From the NCBI RefSeq assembly GCF_963678975.1, contig NC_089277.1, positions 24,068,672 through 24,132,671 of the forward strand: a DNA stretch of 64,000 nucleotides, written 5' to 3'. Shown one piece after another: positions 6,627-63,052 of this stretch. The position numbers were made by a program, and so were the translations under genes. Under the pieces are notes generated by a model. It was not told the DNA's origin. It made no database searches and saw only the letters and a list, made by a program, of their open reading frames with translations. Source of the DNA: Dysidea avara (Eukaryota; Porifera; Demospongiae; Dictyoceratida; Dysideidae). The number at the start of each line of letters is the position of its first letter. Position 1 is the first letter of the stretch.

Positions 6627-9600
6627 ATGGATAGGTTGGAGATGATTGCTTCGGCTGAGGGGCACATTCCACCAGGAACAGTACACGCAGGAGTGAATGT
6701 GAAAGGTATGATCGCCGGCTGTCTGGCTTCGCGAGACTATTATAGAGTAGTAATGTAGTTATGAGACACTCAACTTCTGAGTAATCAGCCAGTACAGAGG
6801 TAGTCTCGCGGCGCCCGACCCTAAAAACTTTTAGGGTCGGGCGCCGCGAGACTAGTACAGAGGTTTTGAGGTTGCTTGATACACAACTACTAACTTGGCG
6901 CATGTGCAGTAACTAGCCAATGAAATTTAAGGCCATCTTTATTATATTGCTTGTTTCCCGTCACCCAATGGAACAAAAACTGATGCGGGCGGGAGGTGAT
7001 TATTGATTGTTAATTATACACTTGACTCTTGTTATTTCAGTTTCTGACTGCTCTATTAGAGTATCTCAATCTTGAAGGCTGCCAGGACTGTACACCAGCT
7101 ACATGCACCCTAGAATAATTAATTAATTATATGTAATGTACAGGACTCGACAAGCGGGTGTAAACGTACATAAAAGGAGTAGTGTGTGTGCAAGTATTAT
7201 TAACTGTTAATTAGATCTTTAGAAGTTTTGTAATGTTGTACAATTTCCCTGAGACTGATAATGATCTACAAAATTGTTAATAATCTTGTTGAAATTGAAA
7301 CAGGGAACTCACTTATCAAGAATAATTTACCCACCCGAGGACATTCAAATAGATTCAAGCAACCATTTACCGGAGTTAATTCATTTAAATATTCCTTTTA
7401 CCCTGATGCAGTTAAATTGTGGAATAAATTACCAGATACTATAAATAATTGTACAACATTACAAAACTTTAAAGATCTAATTAACAGTTAATAATATAGA
7501 GACTCACTGCCATCCTTCTGCTATGTTTATATGCATAGCTATAATACATTTACCTTAAAACTCGGTCACTCTGTGCCTCCTTCTATCATGAAATAGTGCA
7601 TTCACGTGATCTATAATCAAATAATTAAAAGTTGGTACGGCTGCTACCTAAATATATTGATGTGGGTGGTGACGGGAAACAAGGAATTTAATAATGATGG
7701 CCTAAGCAGCATATTTGAATTTCTCGAAGAGTAAATTTCATTGGCTATAGACTATCTGTTGCACATGCGTAATACAATCGTGCCGATAGTATCAAGCAAC
7801 CTCAAACCTCTGCAGAGTCTATGGCTTTCATCTAGACAGTAATCAGTGCACATGTGCACTTACTATTTATAAACATTTGGAATTCCTCCCTATGGCTAAG
7901 AAACATGCTTGTAGGATTAGGAACAGCACTCCTAGGTTTAGGATTAGGGTCAGATTCAGGCTTGGTTTGTTCTTCGCCTTTGTTAAAGGTTTCTTCATTT
8001 TACATTAATAGAACTGAGGTAGAAACTAAGGAAGATGTCTTAAATGTGGGAAAACTGATCTTATTGCCTATTTAAAAGTATCAAGATATGCCAGTTTTAA
8101 GTGTTCAGTGTGTTGTAGCTCACCCACAATGGATGAAGCTATGTGTACTGAATGCTCACACATTTTATACCGATTCCTTACCTTCCAGAGTATCCACTGT
8201 ACTAAGTTTCTTGTGCCATTTTAGAGGAAGGTGTAGGTCCAGCTGTGGGCCATTCAGGAATCAAAACTGGCTAAAACAAGACATTACAGCGCAGGTCTTT
8301 ATAATCAAAATCATGGAGCTGTACAGTCATATACAGCCATCCTCAGGCTAACTAGAGTTCCATTAGGGCCCATACCACTTGTATGGATTGCCACTGTGCT
8401 CGGGAAAAAGCAGCTTGCAATGCCGCCTGCATATTCCTTGTACCTGCAGTTTATTGTCATGCTAGCCACAAACTTGGCTTACATAATCAAGTGAAGATGT
8501 GTATATATAGCTCGATGGAGGTGTATTTATATTTACCTAAGAGCTGCATGTAGAGTATGGACATTACATTGCATTATTTAACACATATACATAATACACC
8601 CTGTACTTGCAGGTGGTATGCTGAAATGCATGGAGTCAGTGGTTGTGAACTAGTTTGTAATTCAAGATGAATCGAAACAGTTTTTATTGCATAAATCAAT
8701 GATTCTACTAGTGGAATTAGCAGCTTGTGATGGGACAATTCTTTTTTTGCTATTATAGTACTTCTATTTCTGTTTCATTGTATTCTAAGAAATTTTATGA
8801 CAGAAAATGGAATAGGCTATTTGTTCTTGAGTGTATCAGTGTAACCACATGTAGTTGCAGACACATGTCCTACAAAACTCTTGTGTGAGATTCCTTTGTA
8901 CTGTATTCTATAGCTTCACAGCATCAGAGGCACTTCATGCTTAGCAATTATAAACTATTAAAAATGTGGAAAATAATGGACTGGTGGAACACTGCATGGA
9001 ATAGACTACTGAAATAAATTTTAATGCTCTTTTCTTGTTGTTCACATGCACTTACATTAGCTGAAGTGTCATGGCTATACTGTTGCTGTATATGGGTATA
9101 CTCTGTTGTTGCTATGTATGAGCAGAAATATGGGATTAGAGTTTCACTGTACAGTATGTACAGTGCTTGCATTTTTACAGCCTCAACCTTGATGGAATGT
9201 TGTGAGTACATATCAAAAAAGCGTGTGGAGCATGATAAAAAATTCTAACCTTATCATGAATCTTATGAAGCATTTAATGTACTGTACATGGTTAACTGTT
9301 CCACAGATTTTGGTAGTGTACCAAACATTAATTTTCACATCATTAGTTACAGTCAAAGCTAAAACAGCACTACCTTTGAAAGTTGACTGATGTCACACAA
9401 AAACCAAAGGAATTCTATTCCCTAAACCCAGGTGTTAAAATTAATGTTAGGGTAAGGTTACTGTGTAGACTGGTTTTACTATTTATCTGTGTATACTGTC
9501 ATTGTGCACAGGTAAAACTTAACAGTGAACCTCAGTTTGAGATTTAGCCACATTATTTTTTAATGAAATAATTGACTAATGTGTGTGTTTGTGTATTTGT

Positions 9601-11134
9601 GTGTGTGTGTGTGTGTGTGTGCATGTGTGAGTGCGTATTTGTGTGTATGTGTGTGTGTGCACGTGTGCGTATTTGTGTGTGCGTGTGCGTGGGTGTGTAT
9701 TTGTGTGTGCATGTATGTGTGCGTTTGGGTGTGTGTGCATGTGTGTATTTTGTGTGTGTGTGCATGTGTGTGTACTTGTGTGTGTGTGTCTGTGTACGTG
9801 TGTGTGGGTGTGTGTATTTGTATTTGTGTGTGATAGTGTGTGTGTGTGTGTGTGTGCGCATGTGTGGGTGTGCGTGTGTGTGTGTGTGTTACTAGTACAT
9901 GTAAGTATTATTATTAGGTGAGACTCTCTACATTGGTAAGTATGAGCCTCATCATTCTTTTAATCCTGAATATCCTTTTGGAATTATCACACCTTCACAA
10001 GAAATGATAGCATACTGTGACTACAGTAACACAAGTGACAAGGAGTTAACACTGAAGCTTTGTATGAGGTATGAAGCATTGACTGGTAGAGACTCTGTGG
10101 TGTTTTATTGGAAGCCATGTGATGAATATTCTCAAAAAGCTCCAAAGTACTTCCCAGAAGACATTGTGTTTTCAAGCAAAACTTGCAAACCGCTTCTGTA
10201 TTTTGTTGCTCGGGTTGATCCCAATATTATCAAAGAGAGCAATGTGGTAGGAAATTATAACAAAAGTAAATTTCCAGCAGATTTGGATGGTCCACTTGTT
10301 GGAGTTGGACATGCTTGGTATGTTGAAGGCACTCATGTATTCGGTCACTACCGCACACCTATCAGCTCTTTTAATGTTTATGTACCTTATGATGGAAAGA
10401 TATTTCAAGTGTCCAAATTTTCATTTCTCTGCTCACGTCGATTGCCCAGATTAAGTCATTTTACATATCCAAAAGATGAGTGGGTGAAAATCTATAGTCA
10501 TGATCTTCCATCTAATGCATTTCCTGCTGGCATTGCCCCTGATGGAGAAGTGTTATATGTCGGTAGAGCAGAGCACCTCAATGATGAATATGATGTGATT
10601 CCTGGATATGTGACACCTTCAGATATGCATCTTCATATGATGTGGGGGCTACAGGAACAAATATATGACAGCAATGATGGGTTTGAAATGTTAGTTGAGG
10701 AGGTTCAAGATTTGCTTGAATGGGTTGTAGACTCTCAGGGAAGAGTGCCCCAAAATGCTGTAATTGCTGGCTGTGAAGGATTTGCTCTCATGTACTATGT
10801 TGGCCGTACAATAACTGGTAGTGACCTTTCAGTTGGGAAGGACCGGTTTCATGATGCTATTAACCTACCAGATGATAGGGTTGCAAACACCCAGTTATTG
10901 GGGAAGATTGATAAACGTCATGGATTGTGTGTTGCATGGAATGGTTATGAGTACTATTACCAGCAATATGAAGTGTTAGTGCTGAGAAAGAAATTTTCAC
11001 CTAAGAGCCTACAATGTCTTTGTCGTAATGTCATTATCATTCTCACAATGGGTATGCCTCACATAGTTGACCAGTTGAATCTTCCTACACAGCTAAAAAA
11101 GTTCTGTAAAGTGACTGGTAACAAAGTAGATTAA
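6627..11134 (+). CDS. DM9-repeat protein with C-terminal SOCS box, copy 1
   Basis: Two exons, 6627..6705 and 9918..11134, joined at a phase-1 intron (AAAG|GTATGA ... TTAG|GTGAGAC), give 431 residues. DM9 (DUF3421) repeats are mannose-binding lectin modules. The first spans the splice junction (IPPGTVHAGVNVKGETLYIG). A degenerate middle unit ends FNVYVPYDGK. Clear units start at WVKIYSHDLPSNAFPAG (about residue 214) and EWVVDSQGRVPQNAV (about 294). The last 45 residues form a SOCS box: SLQCLCRNVI fits the elongin BC box (L-x3-C-x3-hydrophobic) and DQLNLPTQLKKF fits the Cullin-5 box with N for the first Pro of LPxP. I infer an E3 substrate adaptor that binds a glycan or glycoprotein. No signal peptide or membrane segment is seen, so it is probably cytosolic. 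The usual first-repeat Trp is Glu here. The start is chosen because all three copies share it at the same distance from the donor. Confidence 0.85.
6801..6854. mobile_element. 54-bp fold-back element with 9-bp target duplication
   Basis: TAGTCTCGCGGCGCCCGACC heads a GC-rich, nearly perfect palindrome with 26-bp arms and no real loop. It is flanked by GTACAGAGG at 6792-6800 and 6855-6863. The paralogous intron of copy 2 has a single ATACAGAGG at 18182-18190 and no insert, which is an empty site. A 9-bp duplication suggests MULE-type mobilisation. Confidence 0.85.
6931..7702. mobile_element. PIF/Harbinger-like MITE, 772 bp, TSD TAA
   Basis: Terminal repeats start GGCCATC and share the CTTGTTTCCCGTCAC block with the 367-bp family at 5.5 kb. 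TAA flanks both sides (6928-6930 and 7703-7705). It sits in the copy 1 DM9 intron and carries a retrotransposon 3' fragment internally. The immediate flanks are themselves inverted repeats (CCAATGAAATTTA / TAAATTTCATTGG, extending out to about 6855 and 7820), so it appears to have inserted into the centre of an older palindrome. Confidence 0.75.
7261..7491 (+). pseudogene. Non-LTR retrotransposon reverse transcriptase C-terminal tail
   Basis: A 76-residue open frame ends in the signature found after the RT domain of LINE-type elements: LPTRGHSNRFKQPF, then FKYSFYPDAVKLWNKLPD and a final FKDLI. No RT catalytic core or endonuclease is nearby, so it is a 5'-truncated fragment inside the 6931-7702 element. 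Confidence 0.7.
7703..9570. other. Rest of DM9 copy 1 intron, paralogous to copy 2 intron
   Basis: Sequence from about 8035 to 9540 aligns with about 19420-20935 of copy 2 (for example CTTATTGCCTATTT and GAGTTTGAGATTTAGCCACATT, both present once in each intron). It has no coding content. The alignment is interrupted in copy 2 by a retrotransposon fragment at 20.1-20.55 kb. Confidence 0.7.
9579..9893. repeat. Long imperfect (TG)n tract next to a splice acceptor
   Basis: About 315 bp of TG repeats with scattered TATT and GCG interruptions, ending about 25 bp before the exon 2 acceptor at 9917/9918. Open frames on both strands here are low-complexity artefacts. Confidence 0.95.
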
Positions 11135-11172
11135 TTCTTCACATAATTTTTTTAACTTTGTATAATTTTATG

Positions 11173-11480
11173 CCATTTTTTACATTCATATAGTTGGCAG
11201 AACTAAACGTTCTATATTGTGCTACTACTATATGCAAGAGGAATGGCACAGCACATATTGATGGATGATCATGAGAGCTAGCACAGCTGTGATCATGAGC
11301 ATATTTTGTCATCATTGTAAAAACAACCATTTTTTACATTCATATAGTTGGCAGAACTAAACGTTCTATATTGTACTACTACTATATGCAAGAGGAATGG
11401 CACAGCACATATTGATGGATGATCATGAGAGCAAGCACAGCTGTGATCATGAGCATATTTTGTCATCATTGTAAAAACAA
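11173..11480. repeat. 154-bp tandem duplication, two copies
   Basis: The unit at 11173-11326 is repeated at 11327-11480 with only a couple of differences visible. It lies 40 bp after the stop of DM9 copy 1, in the 3' UTR or flank. It contains the palindromic GATGATCATGAGAGC / GCTGTGATCATGAGC pair. Copies 2 and 3 have only one related unit, so this duplication came after the gene duplication. Confidence 0.95.
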
Positions 11481-11621
11481 CTTACCTGTAGCTATATGTT
11501 TGTGTACATGTGTAGTGGTGTTCACTAGAATTTTTAAACAAAAGTAATGACATTTACTGACTTGATCTGTAATTAATCTGGACATGTGGGCACACAAAAT
11601 GTGTTCACATTTTCAACTATA

Positions 11622-11627
11622 AATAAA
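11622..11627 (+). promoter_or_regulatory. Candidate poly(A) signal of DM9 copy 1
   Basis: AATAAA lies about 490 bp after the stop codon. It would give a 3' UTR that includes the 154-bp duplication. It is the first canonical hexamer noticed downstream, but transcript evidence is absent. Confidence 0.35.
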
Positions 11628-11639
11628 GATATATGCACG

Positions 11640-12490
11640 GGTGGGTCCAGAGATCGACAAGGGGCAGGGTATAGTAGTAGGTGATAAGTATATGGAGCAG
11701 GCTAGGGGTTTCGGGGTGCACCCCCCCCCCCCCCCCATCCCCTCCAGAAGCTAAAAATTTTAATATGTTTCAGGAGTGAAATCTTTGATGTAGTGTAGTT
11801 TTATGCAAATTCTTAATGCTTTTTCTAAGTGGTATGCATTGATCAAAAGTTGTATAGGGATCAATAGTTCAGTTATGAGCCTGCCATACAGAATTGCATA
11901 AAAAGGGCCATGGCCATGTATATTTCATCTGCAGAAAAAATCCTAGAAGGTTAAATGTGCCAAGGGAAGATGCTAGTTTTCATATTCAGCAACTGGTTTT
12001 ACTATATGGTGCATGCGGTGACTGTTCTTAGAGAATTTTGATTGACTGCTCTATTAGAGTATCTCAATCTTTAATAATCCTTGGGGGGGGAGGGGATTAT
12101 GTAATACAAGGTAATTATATATATATTGCACTCCACTATACTAAGGTATGATCTGTTGTGCAATGGTGTTCCATAGGCGAATTTTAAATCTTAAGTAATT
12201 ATATGTACACGCACACTAACTGTTGCTATGTGTCTTCTTTAGAAACATTTCTTTCGCTTTATCTCAAATGATAAGATTTAAGTATTAAACAGGTACTTTT
12301 TGATTGCTGACCAATTTTATCATTTAATACTGCCAGGTAGCTAGCACCATTCACACAGTATGCCAGTCCAAAACTGCATATCTCAAAGTGTGTGGTTTCA
12401 ATTTTTTCCTGGGGGGGGCATGCCCCCCCTCCCTGCCTGAGCCTTGCCACTTTCACCCCTGCTCATGCACCAGTCTTCTCCTCATTCAAG
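11640..12490. other. Non-coding 3' flank of DM9 copy 1
   Basis: Contains the remnant GGTGGGTCCAGAG of a CAGGGGCGGATCCAG-type MITE end near 11640, a run of 16 C at 11721-11736 and one dispersed TGACTGCTCTATTAGAGTAT motif at about 12043. Much of it aligns with 22.6-24.1 kb. No gene was seen. Confidence 0.6.
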
Positions 12491-12860
12491 TCAGTAGACA
12501 CATTTGTAGTACAATCCTTCATATACAGGAAGTGAGTAACCAAAATTGCTTAATTTTACATTTAGCAGCATTAAACAGACTGAAGTAACCAAATACTTGA
12601 CTATTGCATTACCAATCAATGTCAGATTGCAGTTTAAGACTGTCATGACAGAGTGAATTTTAGTGTCATCTATGAACATCTTCGAGTTACACTGTTGGGT
12701 ATATTGCTGACATACAATGATTAATAATAAGGGCACAAGGACTGAACTTTGAGGTACTCCAATCTGGACACCATGCAAATCAATCAGACAGACATCCATT
12801 AATTCTTTGAAGATGGTCAGCAAGAAAAATTTGATAGCCTCATAGTGTCCTAATAAGGTT
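12491..12860 (-). pseudogene. Decayed non-LTR reverse transcriptase core fragment
   Basis: The minus strand reads GVPQSSVLVPLLL (canonical GVPQGSVLGPLLF) followed by FIDDTKI (canonical FADDTKI, the catalytic YxDD region). The metal-binding motif is altered and no full-length frame exists. The paralogous segment at about 24.59-24.9 kb holds a further decayed copy, so this insertion came before the DM9 duplication. Confidence 0.75.
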
Positions 12861-13508
12861 ATATGAAGAACCTCCTAACAAAATAAAGTCTGCATACAAC
12901 TGTTGCATTGATAGGCTGTCTCTATAAGCAAACCACAGTTCTTTAAAAAGCTGTTGATTTTCACAAATTTTATAGCATACAGAAATGGGTAAATAGCACT
13001 ATGTATCAAACTGTACGGCAGTGCTGTTAAGTAAGATTCCCCCTGAGAATGAATGCATGATGACCACCAATGTAGTATTAACACCATTGCAGAGACAACG
13101 ATCACACGCAATGAAAAGTAATTTAAAACAAGTAAACTCCTTCAGAAGGCTGAAAATTAATTTTAACTTAAAAACAAAACCTAAAAACAAAATCTAAAAA
13201 AGGCTAGAAGGCTAGAGGCTAAACATAGCAGCACAGAGTCACTATTAATTCAGAAGCCTAAATTTAACAGGAAGCCCTTGGAAACCTCCTCCCTATACCT
13301 CTGTGTATCTTCCACCCCCAAGTGAAATGGTATACAGAAGGTCTATCTACCCCATGGTCAAAATATTTCAGACTAGTACAGTAGCCATAAGCTCCCACCC
13401 AGTTTTGCATGCCTCAGTCCCAGTGCTACACTTACTACAACTTGTGGTTTGTAAGTAGTTATTTCCCAGAGTTTGTTTTAGATTAATGTGCTGTTAGATG
13501 GATATTAG

Positions 13509-13859
13509 TATCTAATCCAAAACAGCCAAGCTGTAAAAAAAAAGAGTGCGGTCCCCAAAAAGGCTATGGTGAAAAAGGATGTGAAATCCAAGGTGGCGGC
13601 CAAGAAATGGCTGTGATAGTAGGTTAATGGTAAAAATTTCAATAACAACAATTCAGGTGAATTTGGGGCCAAATCCTAGTGAAACTTGGAGGAGGCAACA
13701 CAAATTCACCTGAATTGTCGTTAATAAAATTTTTACCATTAACCTACCATGCATCACAGCCATTTCTTGGCTGCCACCTTGGATTTTACATCTTTTTCAA
13801 CCATGGCCTTTTTAGGGGCCGCACCTATTTTTACAGTTTGGCTGTTTTTGATTAGATAA
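13509..13859. mobile_element. 350-bp palindromic (fold-back) element
   Basis: Arms of about 150 bp are inverted copies: AACAGCCAAGCTGTAAAAA on the left and its complement at about 13836-13854, continuing through CCAAGGTGGCGGCCAAGAAA and GGTTAATGGTAAAAAT. The arms meet at a spacer near 13665-13700. The whole could form one long hairpin. No open frame was seen. Confidence 0.85.
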
Positions 13860-13999
13860 TTATTACATTAATACACATCTTTGTACAGCCTTAAACACAG
13901 TCACCATCTTTACAATAACAATTTCTCTCTCAGACACATCATGTCCTATTTACAGCCAGCTATTTTTTTACACAGAATTATACAAATGCATTATAATAC

Positions 14000-14726
14000 A
14001 CTTTCACACCTCAGATCAAAGGAGTGGCCAGGGCTACATTTCATATGTAGCCCAGCCACTGGGCTACATACGAAATGTAGCCGGGCTATATACAACTGGC
14101 AGTTATTGATACTCAGGATGCACGACTTGGATTTCGCCATGAAAATCACTAAGACGGAGAGCGTTTTGTTGTCCTCACCATCCTACGAGTTGAAAAACAT
14201 TGGGCTAAGATGAGTACTAGTGTTATAGCTTATTCACCAATCGTTTCCGCATGTTTTTGAATATGAACACACACCCATCAAGAAGCTACCACTTTGCATA
14301 GAGTAACCACTCTACGAGCAAGCTTACTACTGACCTATCTCGGCCCTTAGTGAACTTCGTAATTTTTCCATAAACGATTCAATAACACTGATCAAAACAC
14401 TAAACTCACGTAACTGCTGCACTTGTATTGGCTTAGGTGATTGATCACCCTGTACAGGCTATCAGCCTGAGAAGTGTTACATATTAACTGTAACATGGGG
14501 CATTCAGGCTTTGCCCGATATGTATGCTCTCTGCCTTCGGGCCTGTGGCCCTCAGGCCAGTTGGGCATACATACACTGGATCGGGCAAAGCATAAACGAA
14601 TGTTCAAATAAATGAATGAATTATATAAATGAATGTTCATAAAACATAATAAAACTATTTGCTTAGCTACTAATTCCAATCAGTAACTTTTCACTATAAT
14701 ATGAAGCATCATACTTTTTAAAAGTA
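14000..14726. other. Intergenic with short inverted repeats
   Basis: GGGCTACAT...ATGTAGCCC repeats lie at about 14029-14090. A second inverted pair, GGCTTTGCCCGATATGTATG and its complement, lies at about 14508-14592. No gene recognised. Confidence 0.5.
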
Positions 14727-14962
14727 CAGTGGTAACCTCAGTTATCAAACCCCTTGGGACTAGGGGTAGTCCATAAGTCTGAAAAGTTCATATCTCTGAA
14801 ACTGTGTATAAATAACCTTAAAATAGCATAAAGATTTTAAAAAAAAAAATCATTTTCAAGTACCCTAATAGAACAGTCACTACTCTAATAGAGCAGTCAT
14901 TTTCATAATTCGGTTAACCAAGAATCTGGATAAGATGGGTTCGGATAACTGAGGTTCCAGTG
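14727..14962. mobile_element. pogo/Tc1-mariner-like MITE, TA target site
   Basis: A 236-bp element bounded by TA on both sides, with CAGTGGTAACCTCAGTTATC at the left and its complement (GATAACTGAGGTTCCAGTG) at the right. It carries two ACTCTAATAGA(G/A)CAGTCA words internally. Related elements are at 51366-51575 and, damaged, from about 60547. Confidence 0.8.
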
Positions 14963-15444
14963 TAACTAGTTACATATTACATATTACTTACAACTGAACT
15001 ATTTAGTTACAGTTACATATTGCCCATAAAATAAATTAACTATAATATTATTACATATTATATTACTTTGTGTCCACAGCCTTAAGCTGTCACGTGTGAA
15101 ACTACCACCTAATAACCATGTGACATGATTGCGTTGTTGGACAATGTGCACGCGGAAATCTTGGTTATAAGTAAGAAGCTGGTGAATAAGCTTCATTCAG
15201 TAGGTTTTGTTACTTCATTGTGGCTAGGTGTTACTCAGTGGATAACTATTGAGATTAGTAACCTTGTTACTTGTAATATTACATAATGTTAGACTTTTAC
15301 AATAACTATATTACTTAGGTAACGCGTTACAGTTGTAAGTAAAGTAACTTGAGTTATATTACCTGTTTTTATAATGTATTTCGTTATATTACTTTGTTAC
15401 CACAAAAGTAATAATTATTACGTAATGTGTTATCCCCAACACTG
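14963..15444. repeat. GTTACAT/GTAAC-rich element ending CCCCAACACTG
   Basis: Dense ACTAGTTACATATTAC and GTAACGCGTTAC words in both orientations run up to TTATCCCCAACACTG, a terminus like that of many hAT MITEs (CAGTGTTGGGG on the other strand). The left terminus overlaps the end of the preceding pogo-like element and is unclear. Confidence 0.45.
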
Positions 15445-15580
15445 GTTTTATGCATGTTGCATACTGTATATTAGTTTTAACTGTATGACTAACATGCGCT
15501 CCATATGCATGTGTATATATTATTCACTCATTGTAATTATTATTGCTTAAAGTGCATTTATGGGCACTCCTATATGATAG

Positions 15581-15796
15581 ACGAAAAGGGGTCTTCCACA
15601 CATATCCAATTGTGTTAACTTGGAAGACTATAACTTGGTGTGCAAGAAAGATACAAACCTGAAAATTTCTCCATCTATTGACCTACGTTGCGGTACTCAC
15701 TACTGTCCAACGTTCAAGGAAATAACGTGTTCCAATCCGAAGTTATGAATTGCCAAAGTTTGTAAATTGGATGTGTGTGGAAGACCCCTTTTCGCA
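15581..15796. mobile_element. TIR element with GTCTTCCACACA termini
   Basis: ACGAAAAGGGGTCTTCCACA on the left matches the complement of TGTGTGGAAGACCCCTTTTCG on the right. A related element lies at about 60722-60955 inside the USP gene. No coding capacity. Confidence 0.7.
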
Positions 15797-15987
15797 AATC
15801 CGGTCACATATTGTCATTATTTTATACATACTAAGAATGTCATAGCAACCAATTGTCAGTCATATAATCACATTACAACCCTTAGGTTTCCCTTTTGTAC
15901 TTTGATTTGGTTTCACTGCCCAAATATAAATTATTTAAGTGCTGTTGCCTCAGCATAAATGTGTTATGTGTTTATAATCTATAGCTA

Positions 15988-16834
15988 ATTGTGACTGGAT
16001 CTGGGAAAACCGGTCTTATCACCCATGTTAGCAGATTTGATTTTTCTTGCAAGAGCACAAAGCTACATGAATAAATTATCTAATTTCACAATCAAAATCA
16101 GCTATACTTGAGTGGTCTGCTTTTGCTGGCTGCTTTTCCCAAGCAAAGTGGTGATCTGTACGTGCAGTGTGGAGCTCTGGTCAACCTAGCTGAGGGTGGC
16201 TATATTTGGCTGTACAGCTCCATGGTGTTGAATAAAGACCTGTGCTGTGAATTTCCTTTTATTTAAGCCAGCTTTGAGACCTGAATGGCCCACAACTTGG
16301 CCTAATTCATCCCTACGCCTTCTTTTCCAACCTCGGTTTAAAACTATCTAAAATGGCGGGAAACTTAGGCTACTCCAAATAAATTTCCTGTTTCCCATCC
16401 TGACCTCAGGCATATTTGCATGTGGACAGGAGGTCCATTTTCATTATTTCATTATGAGATTGCAGCTTTATTTACCTGGCACAGCTATAAAAAGCTGCAC
16501 AAAAGCATGTTCCTTCTTTTTCAAGTTGCAAAAATAACACACACATGAAGTTTGTGCTGACTTGATAACACGTTGACATTGTTTCAAGATGGCTTTTACT
16601 AAGCCAGTCAGTATGCAAGAATAATTGGAAATATATATAAATAATGGAAGAATATGGAATAATTTATTTAGAGCTGACAGTAACCAGATGCGGGTGGTGG
16701 ACGGGAAATGGCAGGAAATTTATTTGGAGTGGCCTTAGTGGATGCTCTGGAAGGTAAGGAATTGGTGTAAAACGTGTGAAAATTTGATACATAGCTTCAA
16801 CCATTGGCAAGCTACAACACACTAAATACTTGAG
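15988..16834. mobile_element. TGTGACTGGATC-type element interrupted by a younger MITE
   Basis: The left part (15988-16367) and right part (16738-16834) match a continuous element at 54856-55498, including TCTGCTTTTGCTGGCTGCTTTT, CTATCTAAAATGGCGGGAAA and AACGTGTGAAAATTTG blocks. The 367-bp PIF/Harbinger-like MITE at 16368-16734 splits it. The distal terminal repeat is lost on the right. Confidence 0.75.
16368..16734. mobile_element. PIF/Harbinger-like MITE (367 bp), TSD TTA, nested
   Basis: Same family and length as 5509..5875. TTA lies at 16365-16367 and 16735-16737, with GGCTACTCC...GGAGTGGCC termini. It inserted into the older element around it. Confidence 0.8.
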
Positions 16835-17310
16835 GCCAACCCAAATTGTTGTCTGGTTTCTGGTCCGCTACCCCCTCCCTCCGGCAAATTCCTACATGAA
16901 TCATGATCAGATACCCCATGTCATGTTGCCATACTTTGATTGGACCATATACATGTAGTCCTGTACATGCACAGTCCTGCACAGCCAGCGCTTCAACAGG
17001 TATAGCTACACAACTAGCTAGTTTTAATACTTATAATAAATCACATACGCAATTTGATTACTTATTTTCTTTGCTGGCCTTGTAGTCATAGTCGCCTTTA
17101 TCACGCTATACTCCAGCTATTCCTCAATTCTGTCAATCAAGAGGAGGTGAAAGGCAGTCCAGTTGGGGGAAAGAGTCAATATCAAGATCAAATGATAATA
17201 GACTCTATAAACCTTCATTCGTCACTGGTAACTAACTAGCAACCACTCAATCTTCTTATCACTTAATCACTAAACAGCCTGCAGGTGGAGAGTCGAGATA
17301 CTAATACTGA

Positions 17311-17792
17311 CACTACTGGACAATAATCTATGCTATTGCCATGAAATTCCCATTATCCTGTGAAATACCCATGAAAGTTTCAGTTGATAATTTTTTCATG
17401 GGTAATGTAATACGTAATACCCATGAAATGCTGGGGTAAAATATTGTACCCATGAGTGACCCATGAACTAGTGAGTTTTCATGGGTTTGTATGCCATGAA
17501 AAACTTCTGAAATCATACCAATGAAAGTCCTATGGAAAACCTATGAATGTATTTCATAGGCTTTCCACACATTTTTCATTGGTGTGATTTCACAGGTACT
17601 TCATGTGTTGTACATACATACCAACCCATGAAAACTTTACTCATTCATGGGTTTTTCATTGGTACACTATTTTGCTCCATTCATTTCATAGGTATTTCAT
17701 TACCCATGAAAATACCAACTGCAACTTCCATGGGTATTTCAAGGGGATCATGGAATTCCATGGTAATAGCATGGATATATTGTCCAGTAGTG
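17311..17792. mobile_element. CACTA-like MITE upstream of DM9 copy 2
   Basis: A 482-bp element starting CACTACTGGACAATA and ending with the complement (TATTGTCCAGTAGTG). Terminal repeats are about 34 bp, and TGA flanks it at 17308-17310 and 17793-17795. CACTA termini plus a 3-bp duplication fit the CACTA/EnSpm group. The interior is built from ACCCATGAAA words in both orientations. In copy 1 the matching site (ACTAATACTGATATATC, about 6452) is uninterrupted. Confidence 0.85.
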
Positions 17793-17999
17793 TGAGTGAT
17801 ATATCAGTTTTAATTATTTATTTTTTTAGCATGTGGCTTGGGGTTCGGGGCGCGTTTCACTCTCTTAGTCGTGAATATAATTCAGTATACGCTGATTGCA
17901 TTCCTTTGAACTGATGTGGTCACCGGTACTCGAGCCAGAACTTTACTTTTTTGCGAAAAGTGGGTAGCACCAGACTGTGAAGGACATTACTGAAGAGCA

Positions 18000-20900: not shown

Positions 20901-22258
20901 AGTTTGAGATTTAGCCACATTATTTTTGAAATAATTGTATAGTGTGTGTGTGTGTGTGCGTGTGTGTGTGTGTGTGTTTCTAGTAGGTATAAGTATTATG
21001 CATAATGGTTAGAACTTACTGTATAATGTCCATTATATTAGGTGAGACTCTCTACATTGGTAAGTATGAGCCTCATCATTCTTTTAATCCTGAATATCCT
21101 TTTGGAATTATCACACCTTCACAAGAAATGATAGTATACTGTGACTACAGTAACACAAGTGACAAGGAGTTAACACTGAAGCTTTGTATGAGGTATGAAG
21201 CATTGACTGGTGCAGATTCTGTGGTGTTTTATTGGAAGCCATGTGATGAATATTCTCAAAAAGCTCCAAAGTACTTCCCAGAAGACATTGTGTTTTCAAA
21301 CAAAACTCGTAAATCACTTCTCTATTTTGTTGCTCGGGTTGATCCCCATATTGTCAAAGAGAGCAAAGTGGTAGGAAATTATGACAAAAGTAAATTTCCA
21401 GCAGATTTTGATGGTCCACTTGTTGGAGTTGGACATGCTTGGTATGTTGAAGGCACTCATGAGCAAGGTCACCGCACACCTATCACATCTTTTAACGTTT
21501 ATGTCCCATATGATGGAAAGATATATGAAATGTCCAAATTTTCATTTCTCTGCTCACATCTGTTGCCCAGGTTAAGTCATTTCACATATCCAAAAGATGA
21601 GTGGGTGAAAATCTTCAGTCATAGTCTTCCACCTAATGCATTTCCTGCTGGCATTGCCCCTGATGGAGAAGTGTTATATGTTGGTAAAGCAGAGCATCTC
21701 ATTGGTGAGTATGAAGTGATTCCTGGATATGTGACACCTTCAGATATGCATCTTCATATGACGACGTGGGGATTTCAGGAACAAATTTATGACAGCAATG
21801 ATGGGTTTGAAATGTTAGTTGAGGAGATTCAAGATTTATTTGAATGGGTTGTAGACTCTCAGGGAAGAGTGCCCCGTAATGCTGTAACTGTTAGCTGTAA
21901 AGGATTTGCTCTCATGCACTACGTTGGCCGTACAGTAACTGGTAGTGACCTTTCAGTTGGGAAGGACTGGTTTCATGATGCTATTAACCTACCAGATGAT
22001 AGGGTTGCAAACACCCAGTTATTGGGGAAGATTGATAGACGTCATGGATTGTGTGTTGCATGGAACGGTTATGAGTACAATTACCAGCAATATGAAGTGT
22101 TAGTGCTGAGAAAGATATTTTCACCAAGGAGCCTACAATGCCTTTGTCGTAATGCCATCATCATTCTCACAATGGGTATATCTCACATAGTCAACCAGTT
22201 GGAACTTCCTGCGCAGCTAAAAGAGTTTTGTAAAGTGACTGATGACAGAGTAGATTAA
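18000..22258 (+). CDS. DM9-repeat protein with C-terminal SOCS box, copy 2
   Basis: Exons 18000..18078 and 21042..22258 join at the same phase-1 intron as copy 1 (AAAG|GTACTG ... TTAG|GTGAGAC), giving 431 residues. Domain order matches copy 1. The first DM9 unit crosses the junction; later units begin at WVKIFSHSLPPNAFPAG and EWVVDSQGRVPRNAV. The C-terminal SOCS box has BC box SLQCLCRNAI and Cullin box NQLELPAQLKEF. As in copy 1, residue 5 is Glu where DM9 repeats usually have Trp. The frame is fully open, with differences from copy 1 scattered and mostly conservative, so it looks functional. Its upstream region carries the CACTA-like insertion about 200 bp before the start, which could alter expression. 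Inferred role: cytosolic glycan-recognising substrate adaptor of a Cullin-5 ligase. Confidence 0.85.
18425..18530 (+). repeat. tRNA-derived SINE-like segment
   Basis: Contains an A-box-like stretch (TATCACTGGTTAAGGATGC) and a near-canonical B box (GGTTCGAACTC, about 18490), followed within 35 bp by a T-run that could end Pol III transcription. It does not fold into a convincing full tRNA, so it is probably a tRNA-derived SINE head or relic. A second, weaker A-box-like word lies at about 19393. Confidence 0.4.
18540..20118. other. DM9 copy 2 intron, non-coding
   Basis: Holds one dispersed TGACTGCTCTATTAGAGTAT motif at about 18548 and, from about 19420, sequence paralogous to the copy 1 intron from about 8035. 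The 18870-19077 open frame has no recognisable family. Confidence 0.6.
20119..20560 (+). pseudogene. Non-LTR retrotransposon RT C-terminal fragment
   Basis: Two open stretches separated by an in-frame stop encode RPILEYAAVIWCPH, QVEMLQRNAARFIFGDY and, after the stop, FFPRAIRLWNSLPDHVV. These are the standard post-RT motifs of LINE-type polyproteins. It occupies a point where the copy 1 intron has only about 100 bp of unrelated sequence (about 9085-9205), so it inserted after the genes duplicated. Confidence 0.75.
20941..20980. repeat. (GT)n tract near the DM9 copy 2 acceptor
   Basis: About 40 bp of GT repeats, at the position matching the 315-bp tract of copy 1. It ends about 60 bp before the acceptor at 21041. 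Confidence 0.9.
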
Positions 22259-24138
22259 TTCTTCACACAATTTTTTTAGTTGTAATTTTATGCCATGTTT
22301 TTTTACATTCATAATTATAATTATTTAGTTACATATCACTTATAAACATTCTACTATGTGCAAGGGGAATGATGCAACACATATGGATATTCATAAGAGC
22401 ACAGCTGTGACTGTTAATGGTAATCACCTTTTGTATACATAATATAAAAGGCATCAGTACAACAATCGTTATACAGATTTGTGAGCGTATTTGTCATTGT
22501 AAAAAAAATCCAGCCAGTAATGCCACTATAAACTTTTATTTGTGTACATGTGCAATAATGCTCACTATATATATACATAGAATGAAACAAAAGTAATGAC
22601 ATTTACTGACTAGACCTGTAAAATCTGGGCATGTGGTCACACAAAATTTGTCTACTTTTCAAACTTTCATAACTTTTTATATCATTTATAATATGCAGGG
22701 GTGGATCCAGGGTTTGAAAAGTGGCAGGGTAGTAAGTACATGGAGCAGGGAGTTTGGGGGATGCAAACACCGGCCAGAATTTAATATGTTTCAGGACTTG
22801 GAGTGAAATTTTTGATGTAGAGTACATATATAGTTTAGTGTGCAAATATCAAATTCATAATACTTTCTAAGTCCACGGTATGCATTGATCAAAAGTTGTA
22901 TAGAAATCATTGACATGCAGTCAAGAGTATTCTGTTATGAGCCTAAAGTACACTGGCATAATATACAGTATGTACAGAATAGCATATAAAAAGGACCATG
23001 TGCATTTCATTTGCTGAAAAAAATCCTAGCAGGTTAAATGTGCAAATGGGATGGTGCTGCAGATGCAAGCTTTCACATTCAGCAACTCTGCATTACTATA
23101 AGTAATTTATAAATTTTAGTGCTACATGTAGGTGCATGTGCAGTTCTATTAGAGAATTTTGACTGACTGCTTCTCAATCTTTCATAAGCTTTTTTTCTTT
23201 TTTTAGGGGGAGAGGGGGTGCTGCTTATGCAATATTCAGTCCTAATTGAAAATATTATTGGCTATGTAGCTATGAAATATATACAGGATACACAATGCAA
23301 AATTACGTAATGTGAAAATACTGTACCTTTAATGGTTCTAACTGAAAGCTAGCTATAGCATCTTTGAGGTATGTACAATTAAACTTCTGCGAAGGTGGTG
23401 ATAATAATGATGCAATAAAACTGATGAGATTTCTAATATCTGGCTTGCTCACTCAAAGTTATTGGTTGGAACTTTGTACTGATGCATTCCACTAAAGAGA
23501 CCATGGCCAGTGAGGAGGTCATTATTGAGGCCTATACTGATCAAGGAGCCAGAACCTTGAGCTCTGCTGAACGTGTGGATACAGCCTGTAGTTGACTTTA
23601 TGTGCACACAGCCACTGCATGCATATAGATAATCTTTCTTTGTGGCTAAGAACCTTGGGGATACGTGACTGTAGACTAAGAGATATGTGGACACCAGCAA
23701 TCAGTAGATTGTGCACCATCGTATATGAAACATTAAGATGTTTGAAGCATGTGATACAATAGAAATCTCAGTTTTACCCTGGTTTCTATTGTATCATTTA
23801 ACACCTCCTCTTGAAGATTCCAGTTTCTTAATATAACAGCCATAGAAAAATTAATAGCATTGTGTTACGATATTATTATTTAATGGGCTGGAATGCCTAA
23901 TACATGCAGGCAATGCTAAAATTTCCAGGGTATACTTTAGTCTGTGCATTGTTTCCAAACATTATCCATATATTGATAAAATAGCTACAAACATGTCTAC
24001 TTACTACTGAATTAAATGTTAAAGGATCTTCTGAGAACCTGCGTAGCCTTAACAGAAGCTTTGTGACAATGTAAGGATTGTTTTAGGTCACTCGTGCACC
24101 ACACACCAAGGTCCTTCTCCTCATTCAGGTCAGTAGAC
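22259..24138. other. 3' flank of DM9 copy 2, non-coding
   Basis: Aligns in patches with 11.14-12.49 kb (for example GGCATGTGGTCACACAAAAT and AAATCCTAGCAGGTTAAATG). A GGTGGATCCAGG MITE-end remnant lies at about 22703. No gene was seen. Confidence 0.6.
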
Positions 24139-24551
24139 TAGAGCTGAGCGATAGTACAACTATCATAATCACATACTTCACATAATAGTTGGTTTTATAT
24201 CACGATAGTTACTAGCAGTTATTAAAGACACTCAACTTCATGTAAACAACACATGAATACTCCAATTACATACACACCACATATCTGCTTTTCTAACACT
24301 CCACTAAAAATTGTTATGTGTCAGTATTACAGTTGTTATCTTTGTTGTCCACGTTCAAGCTAGTGAAGCTACTAGCCATTTACAGTTTTCTGAACTTCAA
24401 CACTACTATCATGTTTGCTTTTGTTATCCATGTTTTTGACTAAGCGCAGATATGGATAAGTAATCACAATAGCACGATAGTATACTATCAAGATCACGAT
24501 TGTTAATAGCTATCATGATAATCAATTGATCGCCACTATCGCTCAGCTCTA
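24139..24551. mobile_element. hAT-like MITE with 8-bp target duplication and known empty site
   Basis: 413 bp, starting TAGAGCTGAGCGATAGT and ending with the complement. It is flanked by CAGTAGAC at 24131-24138 and 24552-24559. The paralogous site in unit 1 (12492-12499) has one CAGTAGAC and no insert. The interior is rich in TATCATGATA-type words. Confidence 0.9.
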
Positions 24552-24589
24552 CAGTAGACACCAATTCTTCATAACGTATGATACACAAA

Positions 24590-24900
24590 GTGAGTTACCA
24601 AAATTGCATAATTAATTACATTTTGCAGCAGTAACCAGCTGAATCATTGATACTTGACCACTGCATTACGCTATCAATATCATCTTGCAGTTTAAGACCA
24701 TCATCAAAACTTTTGATGACATATATATAGTGTTATCTGCAAACATCTTAGAGGTAATTACACTGTTGGGTATATCAGTTGCATGCTGACATACAATATA
24801 AACAATAAGAACCCAAGGACTGAACCTTGAAGTACTCCACTCTGGACACTAATCCAATCAGATAGATATCCATTAACTACCACTCTTTGAAGTAGTCAGC
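24590..24900 (-). pseudogene. Second copy of the decayed RT core fragment
   Basis: Paralogous to 12491-12860 (shared CCAAAATTGC, TACACTGTTGGGTATAT and CATACAATATAAACAA-type words) but further decayed, with no open frame of length. It was carried along by the tandem duplication. Confidence 0.6.
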
Positions 24901-25049
24901 AAGAAAAGAATTTTATAGCCTCATAGTGCCAACCTAAGGTTCTTATAATAAAGAACCTACTGACAACAAAGTAAATGGCTCTGTATTAAATTGATGGGCT
25001 GTCCCTACAAGCAAACCACAGTAGTTTAACAACGGCTGTCGGTTTTCAC

Positions 25050-27423
25050 TACGTGTTCATTACCAACTATTTAATACTTGAAAATGAAAGACCGCTCTAG
25101 TAGAGAGTTTTAAATTGGCTTTGTCATAAGTCACAAATTGTTGTATGGAGAGCTAATTGATGTGTGCAGACAGCTTTATTGATCTTATCAAACTAATGAA
25201 GTCCATACAAGTGCAAATTATATTATATGGTTATAAGTGTCATTTAGTCTGGACTATATATGTTGCCACTATTATCTTAAACAAGATTCATATAGCTAGT
25301 TGCAATGAATTCATTAGTCCATACAGTACTAGTACTGCTAATAATACTCTAAACATCAAAGCCTACAATTATCGATGATTATTCTTTGAAGGATTGCTGT
25401 GTGCTCAACAAAAATAAATCAAAAAATGAGTGACAGCTTTATTAAGAGTAACTCAAAATAATTGTGCTTATATCAGTAGCAGTTATATACTTACAATCAC
25501 TTTGTTTGCTTTGACATATTGAGTGGTCAGATAGCTGTTTATATAGCTAATGAAATCCTTACAATTGTAAACTAGCTATATTCACACCGCTATACTGGCG
25601 ACATGCCTGACACATTCTGTAATGTGATTAATTATTCAGAAAGTAAGTTTATTAGTCCCTAATACCTATAGCAGGGGCGGATCCAGGAGCTGGCAAGGGA
25701 GGAGCTGTGCATATTTTAATGAGTTTTGTGGCTAAACCGATCTTTGCCTGACAAAGTTTAGTATTTTAACTAGAAGCATGGCTGGCTTCTCCACAAGTGA
25801 GGGTGGGGGGAATGCCCCATCCTGGATCCGCCATTGTATAGTGTCTATATATACCACTGTGCTAAGCATTTCTGCTTAAAAGTAATCTTGAAATGTAGCA
25901 AAATCCATGATGACTGTATTTGCTGACTCTAATAGAACATTCACCAAATTTGTAAAAAATTAATTGTTATGTTATGCTTCACAAATGTTATAGTAGAAAT
26001 TGCACTATGTATCTTGATCAAACAGTATGGCAGTATTGTTTAGTGGGGTTTCCCCTGAAAATGAATGCTTGGTGACCACCAATAATATGCTGCACGCCTT
26101 TAAAACCATTACAAAGACAATACACAACAAAAGTGCCTCAAATCCTGCTGGGCCAAACAGCAGTAACCATAAGCTCACACCCAGTTTTGCATGCCTCAGT
26201 CACATGCAATGCTACATTTACATAGTTAGCTACAACATGTGACTTGTGTTAGTTAGTATTTTCTCTGTGTGTAGTTCTTACTTTAATAGAATTACTGTGT
26301 TTGTAGATGGATATTTGTTATGAATGCTCTATTAGAGTACACTTGATAGAGTTATCTCCAACTTTCAAAACTATCTGCCGGCTTGATCAATTCAGGCAGT
26401 TCACAAACTTGAAAAATCCTGTAAGAGATTTCAAATCTTTTCAATCAAGATTTCAAAGATTTTATGGTAGCTAAGATTTCTTGAAGATTTCAAAGCAGAC
26501 TAGCTATCTGATTCAAGTTGTGTGATGGTAAGTAGCTACCCAGAAATATACGGAAATTATATCGTGAATAATATTTCAGATTTCAAAATCTCTACCACAG
26601 ACTGTATGAGTATAGCTGATTCAGTGAACACATGTACACGTATAGCTACTGAGACACACATGACAGTACAGATCAAGTTTATATTAAAAAAAAAATTGTA
26701 CAAAAATACATCATCAACATAGGTGGGCAACGTGACATGCAGTACAGGACTATGATTTACTTTCATGGCTCAGCCAGGGAAAGGATTAGGAGGGGGCATC
26801 CACAGAGATGCCAACCTCTGAACAATTTTAGGAGTGAGACCTCAAACACTACCGGCAATGTGGAACAGATTCAAGTGCAGCTCCAGGATTTTTGGTAGTG
26901 AAGACCAAAAAAAAAAAAAAAAGGTCGTCGCATGTTCTAAGTACAAAAATAAGCACAGGTCTGCCCAATTTTAAGCACAGGGCTAATTACGAAGTAGATC
27001 AGGCGTGAGAAATGCGTGAGAACTAAGCTGAAAGAGTGAGAAACAGAGGGTTAGGCGTGAGAGCGTGAGATTACTAGCCAAAGAGTGAGACTCACGCCTA
27101 ATGCGTGAGAGTTGGCATGTCTGCATCCAGTAAGCGAGTTAGACTGTGTGTAATGGTGCCATCATTCTGTCATAAAGTGGGAAACTCCCATGTGATGCGC
27201 GTGCCCCTGTATAAAGGCATTCCCTTCCACCCACTCACACTCGTAGCGTTTCAATCAAACTTGGTTTCAATTTCAGGAATTTATTCATAAGCTATGGTCT
27301 ATCTGATTTAAAGCGCATCAAAACTTTACACGCGCATGTTGAATTATTTAAGTATAAAGTTTCTCAACAGCAAGGCATAGAACACACACCCATAATATTA
27401 TCTACTAGCTATCACTGAAGAAC
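25050..27423. other. Intergenic between DM9 copies 2 and 3
   Basis: Includes a MITE at about 25674-25840 with CAGGGGCGGATCCAGG / CCTGGATCCGCCATTG ends. A patch at about 25.98-26.29 kb is paralogous to 13.0-13.5 kb. A GCGTGAGA-rich repeat spans about 26990-27120. No gene recognised. Confidence 0.6.
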
Positions 27424-30400
27424 ATGGACAAGTTGTGGATGATTGCATCGGCTGAAGGGCACGTTCCACCAGGAACAGTGCACGCAGGAGTGAATGTGAA
27501 AGGTAGACTTACGTATGGAGTACATGTACAGTGTATGATTGTGTTTGCGTCCTTGCATGCTGCCCGCTGGGACAATGAAGTGGTTGTCTTGATCGTTATA
27601 CCCGGCGGCCTTTTAGTAATGCTTTAGTTAACACAGTCGACATGTCGACCTGAACCCTACTTAAATTCCCCAACTTTACACTTTGAACCTGCTACAGGGG
27701 TGTCACGTAGGTACGCGCTGTAGGTAGACCTGCGACCGCGGTCAAAGTCTTTACCGGCCGAAATTTCGCTTTGACCTGTGACTAAGAGCCTTTTCCGACC
27801 TTTGACCTGGAGTATTAAAATTAACACTTGATGTTAAGGTTACACTATTTATTAGCTCACTTTGTTATAAAGGAGTGACACCATCAAGGACACTGTCAAG
27901 ATTGTCAAGTGGAATTTTTTTGTTGATCAGGTTATCAGGAGAACACATACTCCACTACTTTAATACAGTGTGTGCACCATTGTCAAGGCCGATGAGAGGA
28001 TTTAGGGGGCTCAGGGCAAATTTTGAATGTGGCACCCCCATAACCCATAATTTTCAAAAGGAAAAATAGACAAAAGGACATTGCAAGAACAATCTTATAC
28101 TAGACTACAACTAAAAGCAAACCGCTAGCCACTAACCAATATGCTTATTGACAGTTTTAACATGCAAAGCATGCCAAACCAGGGGGCATGCCCCCAGGGG
28201 GTCTGTAAAATTTAGTCCGTCTGAGATTGAACATGAGAGTGATTTTAATAATTTATCGGAGTATAATTATAATGTTTATTGGACTGTTGTATTAGGTTGA
28301 TTGCTGTATTAGGGTATCTCGAGCTTGAATTGTATATCAAACTTTCTGCCAAATACATACCGCCTAGGAAATACAGCATCATCTGAGGCATCTCATGTTT
28401 AGAACTCAAGTGAGGAAAACATTAAAATGGTCTAGCTATAGTGGTGCATACATTGAAACAAGACTACTGGATTATCCTTAGATATTTTATTACTTCCCTC
28501 CATTATTTCTGTTAAATTTATAATTATGCTCATTTGATAAAGTTATTGTGAAGTCAATTCTCGAACACAAACAGTAAAAGTGAAGGTACTTAATTTAGTA
28601 CTACTGTTGGCCAAAGCCTTAGCCTGTACTTCAACACTTAATAATACTGTACTATGGGTGTGTGTACACATAAAAGGCCATACCATAGAAGTTTTGAATA
28701 AGGCCAAAACAAAATTTTTAAGGACTTTGGCACTGTAGTAGTAAAATTAATACTGGATGTTTTTATTACTTGACCCACTATTTATTAACTCGCTTTGTTA
28801 TATATAAAAGATTGACAATATCGAGGGACACTGTTAAGATTGTGGAGTGGAATTTAATGAACTTTGCTTGTTGATCAGGTCATCAGGAGAACACTTACAT
28901 CAGTACACCTAGTACTTTAATACATTGTGTGCACCATTGTTGCTACTGGAAATCTGCTTGTATCTGATATAAAGCCTATCAAATATTTATGCCTAAAACT
29001 ATAGTACTCATCAGTACTCAATCATTAACACCAGACAGTACTTTTAAATTTTGAAATATTATGTCTCGCAATGCACTAATAAGGAAATTTACTGATATTC
29101 TGATAAGAACAATATATTGGGTACAGAATTAGTGATTCCGATACCAATAATTTGTAGTATCTGTGAAAAAGGTACATGCCTATGAAGAGGTTTGCATGTG
29201 CAAAGAAAAATTATTAACCCAGAGTTGGACTCATGGCCATCTTGTGCATGCTCATACTTTACCTACAGTCCTGCAGAGTCACCCTATAAGTAACGATGAG
29301 CTAAATTTGATATACATCTTACTTTTATCCAATGTTATTGTACGTATCTGTATGCATAATGGTTAACATAATCTCTATTAGGTGAGACCCTCTACATTGG
29401 TCAGTATGAGCCTCGTCGTGATGTTAATGAATATCCTTTTGGAATTATCACACCTTCACAAGAAATGATAGTATATTGTGACTACAGTAACACAAGTGAC
29501 AAGGAGTTAACACTGAAGCTTTGTGTGAGGTATGAAGCATTGACTGGTAGAGACTCTGTGGTGTTTTATTGGAAGCCGTGTGATGACTATTCTCAGAAAA
29601 CTCCAAAGTACTTCCCAGAAGATATTGTGTTTTCAAACAAAACTCGTAAATCACTTCTCTATTTTGTTGCTCGGGTTGACCCCCATACTATCAAAGAGAG
29701 CAAAGTGGTAGGAGATTATAACAAAAGCAAATTTCTAGCAGATTTTGATTGTCCACTTGTCGGAATCGGACATGCTTGGTATGTTGAAGGCTTTCGTGAG
29801 AAAGGTCACCGCACACCTATCACCTCTTTTAATGTTTATGTACCTTTTGATGGAAAGATATATGAAGTGTCCAAATTTTCATTTCTCTGCTCACATCAGT
29901 TGCCCAGGTTAAGTCATTTTACATATCCAAAAGATGAGTGGGTGAAAATCTTCAGTCATCGTCTTCCACCTAATGCGTTTCCTGCTGGCATTGCCCCTGA
30001 TGGAGAAGTGTTATATGTTGGCAGAGCAGAATGCTTCAATAGTGAGTATGATCGCAATGATGAGATTCCTGGATATGTGACATGTTCAGATATGCATCTT
30101 CATACCACATGGGATCAACTTGAGATTATTTATGACTACAGTGATGGCTTTGAAATGCTAGTTGTAGAGGATCAAGATTTGCTTGAATGGGTTGTAGACT
30201 CTCGAGGAAAAGTGCCACGGAATGCTGTAATTGCTGGCCGTGGAGAATTTGCTCGCTTGTACTACATTGGCCGTACAATAACTGGCAGTGACCCTTCAGT
30301 TGGAGAAGATTACAGTGATGCTCCCATTAATCTACCAGATGATAGGGTTGCAAACACACAGTTGGTGGGGAAGATTGACAGTGGCCGTGGTAGTATGTGT

Positions 30401-30604
30401 GTTGCATGGAATGGTAATGAATACTATTATCAAAAATATGAAACGTTAGTGCTGAGAAAGAGATTTTCACCAAAAAGCCTACAATGTCTTTGTCGTAATG
30501 CCATCATCATTCTCACAATGGGTATGGCTCACATAGTCGACCAGTTGGAACTTCCTGCACAGCTAAAAGAGTTCTGTAAAGTGACTAGTAACAAAGTAGA
30601 TTAA
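27424..30604 (+). CDS. DM9-repeat protein with C-terminal SOCS box, copy 3
   Basis: Exons 27424..27502 and 29382..30604 (phase-1 intron, AAAG|GTAGAC ... TTAG|GTGAGAC) give 433 residues. This copy keeps the canonical first-repeat Trp (MDKLWMIASAEG) that copies 1 and 2 replace with Glu. The first DM9 unit crosses the junction. A degenerate unit ends near residue 190. Clear units begin at about residue 213 (WVKIFSHRLPPNAFPAG, then DGEVLYVGRA) and about 295 (EWVVDSRGKVPRNAV, then ARLYYIGR). The SOCS box covers about residues 392-427: SLQCLCRNAI fits the BC box and DQLELPAQLKEF the Cullin-5 box. Small indels in the third unit (NSEYDRNDEIPGY) separate it from the others. Family and domain calls are solid; the E3 adaptor role is inferred from the SOCS box. 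Confidence 0.85.
27855..28960. repeat. Duplicated segment inside DM9 copy 3 intron
   Basis: Sequence at about 27855-27990 (CACTTTGTTATA, GTTGATCAGGTTATCAGGAG, GTGTGCACCATTGT) recurs in the same orientation at about 28790-28945, roughly 930 bp away. It is non-coding and not present in the copy 1 or copy 2 introns. Confidence 0.75.

Positions 30605-42851: not shown

Positions 42852-63052
<20,201 letters not shown>

Follow-up and report, generated by a model that had tools for sequence, protein, structure and literature searches.

The window, the whole 64,000-nucleotide stretch of Dysidea avara DNA analysed here, holds three tandem paralogues on the + strand, spanning positions 6627-30604, in which DM9 repeats are fused to a SOCS box, and the products of these genes are likely to be soluble, and most probably cytosolic, substrate receptors of a cullin-5 ligase with a diversifying recognition part. 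Partner domains known for SOCS boxes include SH2, ankyrin, SPRY, WD40 and Rab-like domains, and we know of no SOCS-box receptor with DM9; what is new is the recognition domain joined to the SOCS box. Far from being a local trio, the window genes belong to a family that numbers at least 27 loci in the same genome. Their features are as follows.

6627..6705, + strand: copy 1 exon 1 (predicted), encoding MDRLEMIASAEGHIPPGTVHAGVNVK plus the first base of a Gly codon, the start of DM9 repeat 1; ATG, phase-1 GT donor, DNA conserved across the three copies
9918..11134, + strand: copy 1 exon 2, the rest of DM9 repeats 1-4 and the SOCS box, including the stop; open frame, AG acceptor, Pfam DM9 at 3.8e-27
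10997..11110, + strand: copy 1 SOCS box, with SLQCLCRNV and LNLPTQLKKF; Pfam PF07525 at residues 365-402 of protein P0001, 30.8 bits
18000..18078, + strand: copy 2 exon 1 (predicted); ATG, GT donor, DNA conserved across the three copies
21042..22258, + strand: copy 2 exon 2, DM9 repeats and SOCS box; open frame, AG acceptor, Pfam DM9 at 9.8e-24
22121..22234, + strand: copy 2 SOCS box, with SLQCLCRNAI and LELPAQLKEF; Pfam PF07525 at residues 377-414 of protein P0002, 30.9 bits
27424..27502, + strand: copy 3 exon 1 (predicted), encoding MDKLWMIASAEGHVPPGTVHAGVNVK
29382..30604, + strand: copy 3 exon 2, DM9 repeats and SOCS box; open frame, AG acceptor, Pfam DM9 at 1.4e-24
30467..30580, + strand: copy 3 SOCS box, with SLQCLCRNAI and LELPAQLKEF; Pfam PF07525 at residues 366-403 of protein P0003, 29.2 bits

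The fusion itself is read directly from the DNA. Since one uninterrupted exon encodes both domains it is free of any splicing assumption, and a splicing artefact as its source is ruled out; a chance match is likewise ruled out by the Pfam E-values and by recurrence in 16 loci. All three window proteins match Pfam DM9 (PF11901) with 95, 84 and 86.6 bits (cut-off 26.2) at E-values between 1e-23 and 4e-27, and the SOCS_box scores listed above, with E-values from 3e-7 to 1e-6 and coverage of profile positions 1-39 of 39, all exceed the cut-off of 23.5 bits. The profile search thus bears out, in three proteins out of three, the initial annotation's claim that three paralogues across this span join DM9 to a SOCS box. 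The F-box is absent from the three proteins, a Pfam search at E<=1 having returned only DM9 and SOCS_box.

The junction between exon 1 and exon 2 of the window genes is a prediction from sequence, in which each first exon comprises 79 bases and ends in phase 1. A longer exon 1 with a later GT scored equally, and the donor immediately after AGVNVK was preferred because G|GT stands at the same place in all 12 of the exon-1 peptides found; these come from 12 of the 16 intact family members, whilst for L010, L017, L018 and L019 no exon-1 peptide was found within the stretches fetched. The resulting proteins have predicted lengths of 431, 431 and 433 residues for copies 1 to 3. Their spliced N-termini open straight into the first DM9 repeat, no signal peptide or hydrophobic leader is evident by eye at the predicted N-termini of the window proteins, and no leader was seen by eye among the 12 of 16 members with an exon-1 peptide. 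From such a leaderless start a cytosolic location is the natural inference. Two repetitive elements lie close to copy 1: a CA/TG-rich simple repeat (window 9553-9895) fills the end of its intron, just ahead of exon 2, and two tandem copies of a 154-base unit, 99% identical to each other, lie at window 11173-11480, shortly 3' of its stop codon.

With copy 2 as query, 39 matches were obtained in the genome to which the window belongs (550.8 Mb in 108 contigs), corresponding to at least 27 loci; contig C1 carries 14 of them (32.87-33.32 Mb) and contig C6 the other 13 (at 15.8, 18.5, 24.0-24.1 and 33.4-33.6 Mb). The sequences of all 24 loci outside the window were retrieved for comparison with the three window genes. 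Exon 2 is open through the SOCS box in 16 of the 27, window copies included, and the other 11 are partial or interrupted. The fusion is therefore carried by 13 intact loci beyond the window, with 27-76% identity to copy 2. DM9 is matched at E<=0.01 in all 16 intact members and SOCS_box in 15, the sole exception being L020 (E 0.013). When scores were compared with the Pfam cut-offs member by member, which was done singly for 8 of the 16, L017, L019 and L020 fell under the one for SOCS_box and L022 under the one for DM9 (22.2 versus 26.2 bits). These same three C1 members, L017, L019 and L020, share an alternative tail after LPLP, MRNVLKEICQL followed by a stop, as if they had inherited a late frame change. 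A tree of the 16 members, in which 9 of 13 inner branches are well supported, groups the window copies with L023-L025 in a supported clade, separate from a clade of C1 copies; L026 and L022 form long branches whose position is uncertain. The genome was searched exon by exon for both domains, and the totals of at least 40 DM9 and at least 23 SOCS_box matches are lower bounds; among the matches listed, 39 of 40 for DM9 (the remaining one being an isolated fragment) and 17 of 23 for SOCS_box overlap family loci, and on this basis the DM9-SOCS family is a main use of both domains in the genome. A search for relatives gave 29 pattern matches in viral contigs and 52 in contigs of prokaryote genomes, none of which was confirmed in either set, and a viral or prokaryote source is thus unsupported.

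The C-terminal segment was compared with known SOCS boxes by motif, by profile and by model. The BC box read by the initial annotation in SLQCLCRNAI proved to be general, the pattern L-x3-C/S-x3-hydrophobic occurring in 16 of 16 intact members. The Cul5 box is more variable: the complete LPxP is present, as LPLP, in 7 of 16 and its second Pro is invariant (16/16). In the window the segment starts LNLP in copy 1 and LELP in copies 2 and 3, just as had been described, and all six members of the window's clade have Glu, Asn or Asp where the first Pro should be, while 7 of 8 members of the sister group keep that Pro; Glu or Asn at this place may weaken cullin-5 binding by the window copies. Three other SOCS genes of the genome (L002, L003 and L004) carry LPLP. 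Against the PDB, the family profile matched a SOCS4 chain (2IZV, an entry that also contains elongin C) at E 0.0016, and a profile of the tail matched SOCS4 at E 0.0038 and ASB7 at E 0.16. The significance of SOCS4 depends on family profiles, for as single sequences the tail of copy 2 gave no PDB matches and that of L026 nothing significant, with fasciclin-type proteins ahead of SOCS4. A model of the 54-residue tail of copy 2 has helices at 2-8, 11-26, 30-35 and 40-45 (mean pLDDT 67, pTM 0.47), and Foldseek with this model returned four matches, none significant; AlphaFold models of the three full-length exon-2 proteins of the window had a pLDDT of 29 and no usable fold. The genome also contains an exon of elongin C (E 8.9e-22) and the last exon of cullin-5 (E 4.5e-27, the next cullin scoring 2e-9). 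The family had first been proposed as a sugar-reading E3 adaptor, and the adaptor half of that reading, plausible from the SOCS box, the elongin C and cullin-5 exons and the LPLP of 7 members, is well supported on these sequence grounds; the sugar-reading half is weaker, and the reading of mannose is not supported as stated.

The DM9 part shows homology to a lectin. The family profile matches the oyster DM9 lectin CGL1 in the PDB (E 8.6e-11), and its repeats were counted as four, equivalent to two CGL1-like pairs of which the second is very divergent. In CGL1 the strong mannose site consists of Asp22, Lys43 and Glu59 and a weaker one of Lys114 and Glu130 (PMC4932603), and mannose is no longer bound once either D22A or K43A has been introduced singly (PMC5712788). 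Among oyster DM9 proteins Lys43 is shared and residue 22 variable (PMC7907646). The positions of these sites were placed in repeats 3 and 4 by profile alignment, with only repeat 3 aligned confidently along its length. There the place of Asp22 is taken by Ala in 15 members and Ser in one, that of Lys43 by Tyr, His, Thr or Val (Lys in 0/16), and the Glu of position 59 remains in 14 of 16. At the Lys place of repeats 1 and 2 there is Ile, Val, Phe or Ala and no Lys, by our own assignments, those for Lys and Glu in repeat 1 being made by motif spacing and repeat 2 being unaligned to CGL1. Judging from these residues, the strong mannose site of CGL1 type is gone, and the claim of mannose reading is left unsupported by the loss of Asp22 and Lys43 from repeat 3 in 16 of 16 members and the want of Lys in repeats 1 and 2. 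In repeat 4, where the alignment to CGL1 is weak, equivalents of Lys114 (14/16) and Glu130 (13/16) are present, Trp occupies the place of Phe126 in 16/16 and the place of Tyr123 is held by Tyr in 7 members and by Cys in the 6 that make up the window's clade. One weak-type sugar site may thus remain in repeat 4, and a sugar ligand for the family is possible. Immediately ahead of the Lys114 position, repeat 4 contains an insert, roughly 20 residues long and not seen in CGL1, whose conserved core reads INLPxxRVANTQL in most members.

An important consideration is how selection has acted on the two halves of the protein. Median pairwise dN/dS lies at 0.44-0.54 for the DM9 and SOCS parts alike in both groups, and values of about 2 for the SOCS part in two pairs (W3 with L025 and with L024) are based on very few changes. 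Pooled over 13 of the 16 members (L027, L026 and L022 being left out), dN/dS is 0.39-0.51 for the SOCS part and 0.45-0.53 for DM9 outside three loops, the fewer replacement than silent changes in the SOCS part being as expected if it is translated. For the three loops the pooled value is 0.98 in one clade and 1.05 in the other (again 13 of 16), and their mean entropy is 1.7-2.2 bits compared with 0.8-1.0 elsewhere (14 members). By alignment to CGL1 the loops lie beside the Lys43 places of repeats 1 and 3 and the Asp22 place of repeat 4. As they were picked by eye as the most variable parts of the same alignment, a dN/dS of about 1 fits a diversified recognition surface without proving positive selection, and it may have come from relaxation or misalignment.

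If these proteins are receptors of a cullin-5 ligase, the DM9 repeats would form the recognition part that holds the target, the BC helix of the SOCS box would bind elongin C, the LPxP-like segment would bind cullin-5 and the target held by the DM9 part would be ubiquitinated. What that target might be has to be considered in the light of both the lost sugar site and the fast loops. One proposal is that glycans, high-mannose or other, which become exposed to the cytosol in ERAD clients, ruptured phagosomes or invaders are bound by the DM9 part, and that the SOCS box ubiquitinates their carrier, as a CUL5 counterpart of F-box proteins of the Fbs1 type. Homology to a lectin, the Lys114 and Glu130 equivalents and universal Trp of repeat 4, the variability of residue 22 among oyster DM9 proteins that share Lys43 (PMC7907646) and the precedent of sugar-recognising F-box proteins (PMC6389600) all speak for it, but the equivalents of both Asp22 and Lys43 are lost from repeat 3 in every member, repeats 1 and 2 are without the Lys, and in CGL1 the change of either residue is enough to kill mannose binding (PMC5712788); it is accordingly regarded as rather doubtful. 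That the DM9 part binds proteins instead, either pathogen effectors or host factors, so that the family would be a set of diversified protein-recognising CUL5 receptors, is a distinct possibility that still falls short of being probable. It would account for a DM9 profile match that persists after loss of the strong sugar site and for the fast-changing loops, and there is a parallel in a four-DM9 protein of Anopheles, in connection with which a review cites work on the mosquito midgut receptor of the parasite protein Pfs47 (PMC8402412); the sugar-type residues kept in repeat 4 are at odds with it. Because the strong mannose site is lost, at most one weak-type site is left and three fast loops lie near the expected ligand face, the ligands are probably a varied set (microbial or exposed glycans, glycoproteins or proteins) and not plain mannose.

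The other two alternatives concern the SOCS box and the family as a whole. Replacement of the first LPxP Pro in 6/6 members of the window's clade, as against its retention in 7/8 of the sister group, could mean that in this clade the SOCS box, though able to bind elongin B/C, has little affinity for cullin-5 and serves stability or regulation rather than ubiquitination; with the second Pro invariant in 16/16 and the SOCS part under constraint, this is considered unlikely. It is very improbable that the loci are simply decaying tandem duplicates without function, for although 11 of 27 are broken or partial and a dN/dS of about 0.5 is not low, the frame of exon 2 is intact in 16, dN/dS outside the loops is below 1 and the exon-1 peptide followed by G|GT has been kept in 12 of 16. 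The preferred reading, that of cullin-5 substrate receptors with a diversifying recognition part, can be extended into a more speculative one, put forward tentatively, in which an animal without adaptive immunity would possess germline-diversified cytosolic pattern-recognition CUL5 ligases, tandem-expanded and with fast loops on a lectin-fold DM9 part, whose targets would be ruptured phagosomes or microbes, be they invaders or symbionts.

Several other loci were noted in passing. A similar pair of SLC35F-type transporter frames, at window 2977-3408 (- strand) and 35507-35911 (- strand), matches Pfam PF06027 (E 6e-11 and 2.6e-11) and flanks the DM9-SOCS cluster on both sides, on the opposite strand. 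An open frame of 427 residues at window 43485-44768 (+ strand) has a COR-A match (E 3.1e-5) of 24.4 bits, under the cut-off of 35.3, and is possibly a Roc-COR protein; a frame at window 61807-62109 (+ strand) resembles an exon for a ubiquitin carboxyl-terminal hydrolase (PF00443, E 1.8e-9). Elsewhere in the genome, contig C12 has nine Skp1_POZ matches within about 1.1 Mb (6.48-7.56 Mb; L030-L034 and L036-L039), seven of them in open frames of 409-442 residues; two, L030 and L038, resemble BTB proteins by eye, and the cluster is possibly an expanded family of another cullin-adaptor class.

The initial annotation knew of no published DM9-SOCS protein, and none was found in a search of open-licence papers by title and opening of the abstract, which found nothing either on a SOCS box in Amphimedon; the main text of a paper on the Dysidea avara genome mentions neither DM9 nor SOCS (PMC12909245). 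The parts of the fusion do have known counterparts. CGL1 (CgDM9CP-1), the mannose lectin of the oyster, is of the same DM9 family, and repeats 3-4 of the sponge proteins align over most of it, but it has two repeats and no SOCS box where the sponge family has four repeats and a SOCS box, and the Asp22 and Lys43 of its strong site are absent from the family, in which repeat 4 also has its insert before the Lys114 position. Receptors of CUL5-RBX2 ligases of the SOCS4 and ASB7 type have a BC box and a Cul5-box segment at the C-terminus, as the sponge family does. Fusion of DM9 repeats to other domains is likewise found in natterins and insect DM9 proteins, where a pore-forming domain or a farnesoic acid O-methyltransferase domain takes the place of the SOCS box (PMC5712788). 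In terms of logic the closest analogue, as far as the likeness of the parts goes, is provided by the sugar-recognising F-box proteins, for Fbs1-3 and the plant F-box/Nictaba proteins similarly join a lectin-type module to a cullin-ligase adaptor motif in the cytosol (PMC6389600). Their sugar binding has been assayed, whereas the DM9-SOCS family is known here from sequence alone, and they work through SCF (Skp1-Cul1) with other lectin domains, whereas the sponge proteins would combine DM9 with elongin and CUL5. Should the fusion work as its parts suggest, it would constitute a lectin-fold receptor coupled to a cullin ligase independently of the F-box proteins, and would connect DM9 recognition proteins to degradation inside the cell in a concrete and testable way.
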